Assembly: GCF_030824435.1 (NCBI RefSeq)
Contig: NZ_JAVBXS010000021.1
Span: 1-64,000 of the forward strand
DNA from: Rheinheimera sp.
GTDB taxonomy: Bacteria > Pseudomonadota > Gammaproteobacteria > Enterobacterales > Alteromonadaceae
DNA: 64,000 bases
Direction of reading: 5' to 3'
The notes beneath the pieces are model-generated. The model was not told where the DNA came from. It was given only the letters and a program-made list of their open reading frames with translations, and did not search any database. Each line of letters starts with the position of its first letter. The stretch's first letter is position 1. Positions 48,261 through 54,366 of this stretch are shown piece by piece. A program made the translations under genes and the position numbers.

Positions 48261-49640
48261 CTACAAAGTGGCAAACCAGCTTTCTGTGGCAGCAAGTGCT
48301 GCCCCAACCTGCTCTGGTGAAGTGCCACCCAAAGCCGCTCTTTTGGCAAGACCCGCTTCGATGGTTAAAGCGGCATACACGTCGTCGCTAATCAGCGGCG
48401 AAACTGCTTTAAGCTCACTGAGTGTTAAAGCTTCCAGCGGTTTTTGCTGCGCTGAGGCTTTCAGCACCAACTCACCGGACAGTTCATGCGCATCCCGGAA
48501 AGCGACACCTTTACTCACCAGATAATCAGCTAAATCAGTGGCATTGCTGTAGCCAAGCTCGGCGGCTCGACGGCATTGGCCGGCATTGACTGACAAATGT
48601 GGCAGCACAGTTGCAAGCACCAGCAAACACTGTTGCCAGGTGGCCATTAAATCAAAAAAGCCTTCTTTGTCTTCCTGCATATCTTTGTTGTAGGCCAGCG
48701 GCAGACCTTTGAGCACATGCAAAATACCGACTAAATGCCCAAGCACCCGACCGGTTTTACCGCGTAGCAGCTCAAATACATCGGGGTTTTTCTTTTGTGG
48801 CATCAAGGATGAACCTGAAGAAATGGCATCGCCCAGTTTAAAAAAGCCCGCTTCGCCGGAGCAGAAAAAAATCACATCTTCTGATAAGCGCGATAAATGG
48901 GTTAAACACAAACTGGCAGCGGAGGAAAGCTCCACTACATAATCGCGGTCCGACACTGCATCCAGGCTATTGCGCGCAGCTTCTGCAAAACCTAAACGTT
49001 CGGCAACTGCAACTCTGTCCAGCAACACACCGGTGCCTGCTAAAGCACCACAACCCAAAGGGCAAACATCCATGCGTTTTAACGCGTCATCAATGCGGCT
49101 TAAATCACGGCGGAACATTTCAACATAAGCCAAAGCCCAGTGACTGACCAACACCGGCTGTGCCCGCTGTAAATGGGTAAAACCCGGCATCACTAAACCA
49201 TAATGGCTACGGGCAAAAGTGAGCAATGCACCAATGGCAGATTGCAAAGCATCACGCACTAAACCGGCGTTCAGTTTGCTCCAGAGCCGTAAATCTGTTG
49301 CCACCAAATCATTACGCGAACGGCCGGTATGCAGCTTTTTAGCGGCATGACCAATTTTTTCACCAAGTTTGGCTTCAACCCAACTATGAATATCTTCTTC
49401 TTTGCTTTGCAGCGGTAACTCTGGGTTGGCTTCGACTTCCAGCGCAAGTTCTGCTAAAGCGCCATCTAACAATGCTGCTTCTTCTGCCGTGATAATACCG
49501 GCTTCGGCCAAACCGACAGCCCAGCTGCGTGATGCGGCAATATCTTGCTGCGCCAGTAAATAATCAAATCTTAATGAGTCATTAAAAGCCCGGAATTCAT
49601 CCAGACTGGCTTCCTGAAAACGTCCGCCCCACATGGCCAT
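48261..49640 (-). CDS. argH: Argininosuccinate lyase
   Basis: ArgH splits argininosuccinate into arginine and fumarate, the last arginine step. It has 459 residues (E. coli 457). It starts MAMWGGRFQEASLDEF and contains HTGRSRNDLVATDLRLW near 103, TVLLD/HLQRAQPV-type active-site residues (MPGFTHLQRAQPV near 152), and the signature GSSLMPQKKNPDVFEL near 278. There is no C-terminal ArgA fusion, unlike some marine Alteromonadales. It is the last arg gene, but an intrinsic terminator and a possible repeat separate it from argG. Confidence 0.96.
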   Translation of the reverse strand: MAMWGGRFQEASLDEFRAFNDSLRFDYLLAQQDIAASRSWAVGLAEAGIITAEEAALLDGALAELALEVEANPELPLQSKEEDIHSWVEAKLGEKIGHAAKKLHTGRSRNDLVATDLRLWSKLNAGLVRDALQSAIGALLTFARSHYGLVMPGFTHLQRAQPVLVSHWALAYVEMFRRDLSRIDDALKRMDVCPLGCGALAGTGVLLDRVAVAERLGFAEAARNSLDAVSDRDYVVELSSAASLCLTHLSRLSEDVIFFCSGEAGFFKLGDAISSGSSLMPQKKNPDVFELLRGKTGRVLGHLVGILHVLKGLPLAYNKDMQEDKEGFFDLMATWQQCLLVLATVLPHLSVNAGQCRRAAELGYSNATDLADYLVSKGVAFRDAHELSGELVLKASAQQKPLEALTLSELKAVSPLISDDVYAALTIEAGLAKRAALGGTSPEQVGAALAATESWFATL

Positions 49641-49659
49641 GATTGTGCCCTCTCTTTAC

Positions 49660-49790
49660 CCTTCATCCTTGAAACTACAGCTTTGTTACCTTCGCTCTCT
49701 CGCCCCAGTCACATAGCTCACTATGCTCCGGGTCGGACTGGCACTCCAGCCTCGTTCGCTTTTCGCCGCGCTGTAACATCAATGATTTTG
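49660..49790. repeat. Probable interspersed repeat between argG and argH
   Basis: The outer ends carry related inverted sequences: TTGAAACTACAGC near 49669 and GCTGTAACATCAATGATTTT near 49771. The interior is GC-rich and contains no credible gene. The closing phrase, GCTGTAACATCAATGATTTTGG, reminds me of short repeats common in this bacterial group; copy number was not tested. Confidence 0.45.
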
Positions 49791-49798
49791 GGTAGATT

Positions 49799-49822
49799 AA
49801 AAAACAGCGGTCGAAACCGCTG
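49799..49822 (-). terminator. Intrinsic terminator between argG and argH
   Basis: On the minus strand CAGCGGT, a TTCG tetraloop and ACCGCTG are followed by six T. It is 44 bases after the argG stop. The UUCG loop and U-tract make it a strong terminator inside the arg gene series. Confidence 0.8.
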
Positions 49823-49865
49823 CTTAACTGATTATTGCCGGCCAAAACCGGCGTACAAGATCTGG

Positions 49866-51080
49866 TTATTTAGTATGCAACGCCCGGATACGGCTGGCTA
49901 AAGAATACAAACGGATAAAACCGGCGGCATCTTTCTGGTTATATACTTCATCACCGTCAAAAGTGGCAAAAGCTTCTGAATACAGGCTGTTGGGTGAACG
50001 GCGTTTGGCAACTGTCACCTGGCCTTTATAGAGTTTCACCACAATATCACCGGTCAGTTGTTCGGCCAGTGAGTTGGAAGCGGCAAATAACGCATCTTTT
50101 AACGGCGTAAACCAACGGCCGTCATACACCAATTGTGCCACTTCTAAACCCACTTCTTCACGGTACTTCAGCGAAGTGCGGTCATAAACCAGGGACTCCA
50201 GTGCACGCAGTGCAGCCACGATAATAGTGCCGCCAGGTGTTTCATAACAACCACGCGATTTCATGCCGACAAGGCGGTTTTCAACGATATCAATACGGCC
50301 CACACCATGCTCAGAGCCAATGGCGTTCAGCTGTTCAATAGCTTCGATTGCGCCAACCGCATTGCCGTTAATAGCGGTTAATTCGCCTTTTTCGAAACTC
50401 AGCTGTAAATATTCAGCTTTATCGGGTGCTTGCTCTGGTGACTTGGTCCACATCCAGACTTGATCCGATGGCTCGTTCCACGGATTTTCCAGCTCGCCAC
50501 CTTCGTGCGAAATATGGAATAAGTTGGCGTCACGGCTGTAAATTTTGGTGGCTGTAGCTGTAGTCGGTACGTTTTTTTCGGCCAGGTAATTGAGAAGTGA
50601 CTGGCGGGAATTAAATTCCCACTCACGCCATGGCGCTATCACCTTCAGCTGTGGTGCTAAAGCAGCAAAAGCACCTTCAAAACGCACCTGGTCATTACCT
50701 TTGCCAGTGCAACCATGGCATAAAGCATCAGCACCTAACTTTAATGCCAGCTCAACCTGAGCACGGGCAATAATAGGCCGCGCCATCGAAGTGCCGAGCA
50801 AATATTGGCCTTCGTAGACAGCACCGGCTTTGAGCGTTGGGTAAATCACTTCTTTGACAAACTGTTCGCGTAAATCCACCACATAACAGCTGCTGGCACC
50901 GGATTTAATGGCTTTTTCTTCCACACCGGCTAAATCTTCGGCGCCCTGGCCAACATCAGCCACAAAAGCAATGACTTCGCAGTCGTAGTTGTCTTTCAGC
51001 CAAGGCACAATGGCTGAAGTATCTAAACCACCGGAATACGCCAGTACCACTTTTTTCACGTTTTGTTTTGCATCACTCAT
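49866..51080 (-). CDS. argG: Argininosuccinate synthase
   Basis: ArgG joins citrulline and aspartate with ATP. The 404-residue protein carries the PP-loop motif [13 protein letters not shown] near residue 12, then [14 protein letters not shown] near 118, and [14 protein letters not shown] near 190 with the EGGELE acidic patch. It belongs to the shorter (type I, about 400-residue) class rather than the 447-residue E. coli class. It begins 8 bases after the argF stop. Confidence 0.96.
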
Positions 51081-52003: not shown

Positions 52004-52133
52004 AACTCACACTGCTTGACCGCGCTGCGGCTTCCTTATTGGGGAAATCGGCCCGACGGTCTAACAGCGTCAGACCTTCGTAATAGCGGATTTCAGTGGG
52101 GTTGAGGGTTTCCCGATGATTCGAAACGCCCCC

Positions 52134-53971: not shown

Positions 53972-54366
53972 CAGCTGTCGATCTCCAAAAATAAGCGAAT
54001 ACAACACGGGCTTCGCAACAAACTGCGGCCAGTGTACTGAGTCAATCATGCACTTTCAAGAATTATTATGCTGTTTTTGTGAATTTATATTAATTAATTC
54101 CAAATACAACAACTGACAGGCATAGATCTTTTATCTGCGGCTAAGGCTAGCTGAAATTTTTTAATTTTTCGATGACAACAACCAGGGTATAAACCAGCGC
54201 AGGAGCAGAAGGCGTTTTGTTATTGTGTGTGGTTAAGGGGTAAAAACAGCGTACCACCAGCTGCATCAGCCTCCCCGGCGGTACAGCTTGTTGCGGCTAG
54301 CCACTGCTTGGCCAAAAGTAGCAGTGGCCTATTCAGCTGACAGTGATTTTGTTATGCAAACCACAG
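53972..54366. other. Intergenic region upstream of argC
   Basis: This 395-base region separates the SulP gene from argC. The part near argC is AT-rich and holds a candidate ARG box. The part next to the SulP stop has no clear terminator or gene. Confidence 0.6.
54080..54093. promoter_or_regulatory. Candidate ArgR box upstream of argC
   Basis: TGAATTTATATTAA matches the half-site pattern TGAAT-N4-ATTCA of the ARG box at 9 of 10 conserved positions. It is about 109 bases upstream of the chosen argC start within AT-rich sequence. A single box only; a tandem neighbour is not clear. Confidence 0.5.

Follow-up and report, generated by a model that had tools for sequence, protein, structure and literature searches.

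An ERIC element between argG and argH of a Rheinheimera-like bacterium, placed behind an older hairpin

ERIC elements (also IRU or RU-1) are multi-copy miniature transposons (MITEs), the well-kept copies of which form long imperfect palindromes with a TATACCC start and a GGGTATA end, sequences that we take to be the marks of ERIC. Promoters are found in some bacterial MITEs. In E. coli, the RU-1/ERIC element has a published length of 127 nt (PMC2759123, Table 1a). In Yersinia, ERIC is reported to reduce transcripts that lie upstream of it through exposure of a site for RNase E, in a manner that depends on orientation (PMC2229807, PMC10969869), and PMC2229807 also describes ERIC mobility by transposases as lacking experimental support. 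The 2024 MITE review, in the passages drawn on here, names the Enterobacteriaceae and Vibrionaceae for ERIC (PMC10969869), and in the literature searched here no paper turned up that links ERIC or MITE with Rheinheimera; ERIC has probably been little described in the Rheinheimera-like group.

Here, we analyzed a 64,000-nt stretch of DNA (hereafter, the window) from a bacterium that we take, from its nearest genus-named relative (below), to be of this group, in which argG (argininosuccinate synthase, 404 aa, 49866-51080, minus strand, NF001770) and argH (argininosuccinate lyase, intact, 459 aa, 48261-49640, minus strand, TIGR00838) are separated by a gap of 225 bases. Both names and the distance had been given in an earlier note on this DNA, with which profile matches and coordinates agree. 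The same note had called the operon compact elsewhere, which is true of argF-argG (8 bases) and argC-argB (genes overlapping by 4 bases) but not of argB-argF, where a gap of 130 bases (52004-52133), in which a covariance model of the repeat (R1, see below) found no ERIC, means that the operon is not compact everywhere outside argG-argH. We consider it very probable that an older hairpin-bearing spacer received an ERIC insertion and that argH is still reached by read-through within an argCBFGH operon. What is new is the locus; its occupant is a mobile repeat of a recognized kind and not a new system.

An ERIC element in the argG-argH gap

The element, TACCC...GGGTA, occupies 49657-49794 (138 nt, minus strand) and was recognized from blastn copies, the covariance model, and the published E. 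coli element. With its outer ends it spans 49655-49796 (142 nt), these ends reading TCTA and TAAA instead of TATA, the flanking pairs being TC and AA where TA would be expected on both sides. Its left terminal inverted repeat lies at 49770-49794 and its right one at 49657-49681 (each 25 nt, minus strand, the right 72% complementary to the left), and alignments place 15 extra nucleotides, GGAGTGCCAGTCCGA, in the left arm at 49733-49747 (minus strand), which mark an extended subtype and account for the 142 nt with outer ends. Between the element and the argH ATG lies host sequence, an argH leader with a Shine-Dalgarno-like GAGAGGG (49641-49656, minus strand), and relatives have purine-rich argH leaders at the equivalent place, as judged by eye. 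The earlier note had described a 130-base GC-rich block with inverted ends; the inverted ends were borne out, but the extent is 138 nt and the block is not clearly GC-rich (0.53-0.54 in the two 140-base windows that lie largely within it, and 0.44-0.55 in neighboring ones).

Its 15 extra bases aside, the window copy can be aligned along its entire length with the 127-nt E. coli element from the literature, and equals it at 92/127 aligned positions, compared to 95/127 for L008, a canonical copy elsewhere in the same genome, and 100/127 for L002 (element as in PMC2759123, Table 1a), with all three alignment scores far above those of 200 shuffles each. Searched against E. coli, L008 was covered at 127/127 positions with up to 77% identity and matched in 4,830 of 5,426 genomes. 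R1, which was trained on eight own-genome and genus copies and none from E. coli, matched two E. coli copies retrieved with L008, in both cases from end to end of the model (E 2.3e-27 and 8.1e-27), and scored the window copy, itself in the training set, at 108.7 bits over model positions 1-128. Together, the end-to-end alignment, the E. coli matches, and the finding of E. coli copies by R1 identify the block as an ERIC element. The best-kept own-genome copies (L002, L005, and L008) start with TATACCC and end with GGGTATA; among the nine own-genome copies measured, four have lengths of 126-128 nt and five, the window copy among them, of 141-166 nt. A consensus of eight canonical-length copies (two from E. 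coli) has 42 pairs, 17 of them with two-sided change. The window copy departs from described ERICs in its length of 142 nt, with 15 extra nucleotides in one arm, and in its host, which is Rheinheimera-like and not an enterobacterium or Vibrio. REP/BIME, CIR, RUP, and Correia-like sequences are also small bacterial genome repeats, and the block might have been one of them, an assignment against which the RU-1 alignment and the 127/127 coverage of the sister copy L008 in E. coli speak so directly that we give it almost no probability.

Further copies were found throughout the genome. A blastn search with the gap returned eight further places (E 1.8e-15 to 3.6e-5), and R1 returned 18 rows at E <= 0.01, which represent 17 distinct places since one row is the reverse strand of another; beside the window copy, there are thus 16 further places in the whole genome, of which the one in C41 is short and weak. 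Within the 64-kb window, R1 found no second ERIC. These copies, and the lack of the block at the corresponding place in the four nearest relatives (below), identify it as a mobile interspersed repeat, as the earlier note had proposed.

The block also folds far better as RNA than its shuffles do (z -5.0, 0/200), and this strong fold, along with a low-scoring match over the full length of Rfam RF02818 (V_AS5, Vibrio RNA AS5; 22.5 bits, E 0.014), could be taken to indicate an argH leader or small RNA that is conserved by vertical inheritance. RF02818 is filed as an antisense RNA gene and not as a mobile repeat. Across all positions of its model (1-129), there are matches to two E. coli ERICs and three genus copies, with a best score of 95.3 bits and no match reaching the gathering score of 96. 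The ERICs so matched are L032:300-424, L002:1451-1575, L008:1503-1626, L033:300-424, and L025:2911-3035. Because ERICs are matched over the full length of the V_AS5 model, RF02818 was probably built on a Vibrio ERIC copy and not on a dedicated RNA gene, and with the block absent from the four nearest relatives and copied elsewhere in the genome, the leader or small-RNA reading is scarcely credible.

The argG hairpin and the gaps of relatives

Between argG and the ERIC lies an intrinsic-terminator-like hairpin (49799-49825, minus strand), assessed by stem scan, folding, and comparison of relatives. It reads AAGCAGCGGU-UUCG-ACCGCUGUUU at 49802-49825 (minus strand) with six U at 49799-49804, so that the UUCG hairpin with six U in the argG direction noticed earlier is indeed present. 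A 41-nt stretch containing it folds at -14.1 kcal/mol (z -3.8; 1/200 shuffles equally good), and its stem is the longest among eight terminator-like sites in 6.5 kb, a count that is not above chance (mean 9.1, sd 3.1). Stem, UUCG loop, and U run liken it to an intrinsic (rho-independent) terminator; it differs from one in lying inside an operon, with argH close behind in relatives, which makes the predicted termination probably partial.

Of 22 genus genomes in which the gap was compared, 21 had both genes on the locus. ERIC-free spacers were found in 15/21 (66-136 nt) and ERIC-holding spacers in 6/21 (192-225 nt). The four nearest relatives (L011-L014, ArgH 93-96% identical) have shorter spacers than the window, as the comparison of spacing proposed earlier revealed: they measure 75-107 nt, are ERIC-free according to R1, and keep the hairpin, CAGCGGTTTCG[A/G]CCGCTG, with its U run. 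Because the spacers of these relatives have diverged, the empty site was recognized from their length and layout and not from a base-by-base alignment. From stem end to argH start there are 26-30 nt in these four and 25 nt in the window with the ERIC removed. The same hairpin in four nearest relatives without the repeat makes it older than, and separate from, the ERIC: it predates the insertion, and neither arrived with the repeat nor is special to the window genome.

With ERICs cut out, 20 of the 21 genus spacers have a perfect-stem hairpin (in L025 only a weak, different stem), with argH starting 25-45 nt beyond the stem end; L027 has no hairpin by the strict perfect-stem rule. In eight spacers (L020, L022-L024, L026, and L028-L030) ATTCTA follows the stem in place of the U run, so that termination should be weak there. 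Outside the genus, as seen by eye, some relatives have almost no gap, for example 5 nt in Rheinheimera lutimaris (L078), the nearest genus-named relative in the wider genome-contig scan with an ArgH 79% identical to that of the window, and other relatives have a hairpin there.

On a tree of argG and argH, the window falls in a clade with the ERIC-free L011-L014 (support 100/99) and, within it, beside L013/L014 (83/76); given this position, its ERIC was most simply gained on its own branch. By parsimony, the presence of ERIC requires four changes, two of them forced by well-supported branches, with most forks in the sister group open. Within that sister group, L020, L024, L026, and L029 share an ERIC behind the hairpin in the orientation opposite to the window's. 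L025 (genome G002) carries a reversed ERIC at L025:2912-3039, where it separates the arms of the hairpin that belongs to its spacer type; being at a different place and of different sequence, it is probably a separate insertion event. Removal of this ERIC with one TA kept leaves exactly 66 nt, which is the spacer length of L019 and L021 and what insertion at a TA would predict for this one site. The gene tree pairs L024 with L025, whose spacers nevertheless differ in type, and spacers may therefore have been exchanged.

Beyond the genus, 15 of 18 loci in the wider genome-contig set had argG and argH in order, and one of these 15, from Serratia quinivorans (L087:1363-1489), has an ERIC in the gap, in the window's orientation and with its end adjoining the argH leader. 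The entries of ERIC into the gap in the sister group and in Serratia are probably independent of that in the window lineage. Among 27 ERIC-bearing genomes of the order sampled outside the genus, 26 had an argH match (all but G226), and all 26 loci were examined: 22 have argG next to argH, and L184, L204, L208, and L215 have none within the fetched flank. No ERIC was found in the argG-argH gap of these 22 other ERIC-bearing genomes, three of which (L212, L216, and L219) have a 2-nt junction only. We considered the gap as an ERIC hot spot and rejected it on this count; repeated insertion is real, with no general preference shown. The 156-nt spacer of L224 (genome G267) holds another palindromic repeat-like block, not matched by R1.

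These comparisons suggest the following history. The ancestral spacer would have consisted of the argG 3' hairpin, with argH within about 25-30 nt, and in the window lineage an ERIC would have landed downstream of the hairpin but ahead of the ribosome-binding site of argH, with a TA as the target that we infer for this copy. A transposase acting in trans probably moved it, the mechanism suggested for MITEs of bacteria. The outer ends, once TATA, have since changed in this copy, which belongs to the extended subtype with 15 extra nucleotides in one arm.

Probable read-through to argH past the hairpin and the repeat

The earlier note had suggested that a terminator and the repeat break argG from argH, and that argH may be expressed from a new promoter or by partial read-through. 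The proposed break is at odds with the same hairpin standing 26-30 nt before argH in four ERIC-free relatives, and a promoter brought by the repeat found no counterpart in our searches, which detected no sigma-70-like site on the argH strand within the argG-argH gap. With argH 26-30 nt behind the hairpin in the four nearest relatives, and 25 nt in the window once the ERIC is cut out, there is little room for a promoter between them, and read-through, the alternative that the note had also offered, is most likely the way in which argH is reached. It could still be argued, from the good U run of the hairpin and from the promoters carried by some MITEs, that transcription of argG ends almost entirely at the hairpin and that an ERIC-borne promoter drives argH; we find this very improbable, both because the gap lacks a sigma-70-like match on the strand of argH and because L011-L014 have the hairpin without the ERIC and presumably express argH without such a promoter.

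Upstream of both hairpin and ERIC, two promoter-like sites lie inside argG on the argH strand (50250-50221 and 50797-50770, 9/12 matches), and an argH promoter there would mean that neither structure matters much for argH. The region has six such sites where 6.5 are expected, so that the two may be chance matches, and a transcript starting at either would still meet the hairpin, which leaves an internal promoter quite improbable. As to operon control, a search with the ArgR box consensus placed the best match in the window upstream of argC (54078-54095, one mismatch), a probable operon control site; at up to three mismatches the window has 17 ArgR-box-like matches compared to 10.2 expected (2/100 shuffles reach 17), and none lies in the argG-argH gap. 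A second, ArgR-controlled argH promoter was also considered and rejected, with no ArgR-box-like site at <=2 mismatches in the spacers of at least 18 nt among 21 genus, 15 wider genome-contig, and 44 order spacers. On the favored reading, argCBFGH most likely remains a single ArgR-controlled transcript with argH at its end, the hairpin being imperfect and leaky enough to be read through.

That transcript would now carry a stem-loop of ~138 nt whose end lies 16 nt short of the argH ATG, and by which either the translation of argH or the stability of the mRNA could be altered. A stronger claim is that the ERIC RNA is a selected regulatory stem-loop that alters mRNA stability such that argH and argG levels diverge, for which one may cite the effects on upstream transcripts described for Yersinia in parts of PMC2229807 and PMC10969869 and the presence of an ERIC in this gap in 6/21 genus genomes and Serratia quinivorans. 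The Yersinia effect is orientation-dependent, however, according to the parts of PMC2229807 used here, and the other five genus copies are opposite to that of the window; moreover, 0/22 other ERIC-bearing genomes have an ERIC in the gap, and the ends of the window copy are changed, so that we judge such selection unlikely. A strict role is further disfavored by the hairpin that separates argG from the ERIC and by the differing orientations of the element among relatives. A broader version would have ERICs recruited repeatedly and independently at argG-argH to set the argH:argG ratio through the mRNA, in a genus whose copy number is in the enterobacterial range, the events being those of the window lineage, the oppositely oriented sister-group insertion, L025 within its hairpin, and Serratia; this we consider distinctly unlikely.

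ERIC carriage in the genus and significance of the locus

ERIC was found in every genus genome, with R1 matches at E <= 0.001 in 22/22 and a best E per genome of 8.6e-27 or lower. Match rows ranged from 3 (G021) to 147 (G015) per genome among the 150 first-look candidates scored in each, rough counts given this limit and since palindromic places may count on both strands. High-copy genomes (G004 with 117 rows and G007 with 135) stand beside low-copy ones (G008 with 6 and G016 with 8). In the own genome, head-to-tail ERIC arrays of three units (C1:23510-23912) and four units (C100:21186-21679) were observed (loci L064, L066, L068-L071, and L075). Matches at E <= 1e-6 were found in 21/118 family genomes (13/52 genera) and 29/148 order genomes (15/65 genera), scans that had stricter filters and fewer candidates scored than that of the genus.

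The signature of the extra stretch was found at 19 places in three of the 22 genus genomes (own, G004, and G007). Among ten extra-stretch copies aligned, 7/10 also have a right-arm stretch, which is missing in the window copy, L159 (G007), and L158 (G004); an extra stretch in one arm only, as in these three, suggests a mosaic or one-sided loss, going by the alignment.

Together, these results explain an odd operon gap by a recognized miniature transposon rather than by a new regulator, and tell an old hairpin apart from a younger insertion. Dense carriage of ERIC in a Rheinheimera-like genus lies beyond the Enterobacteriaceae and Vibrionaceae named in the passages of the 2024 review drawn on here (PMC10969869). 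The filled and empty versions of one gap offer a natural test set for the effect of ERIC on mRNA and for its mobilizer.
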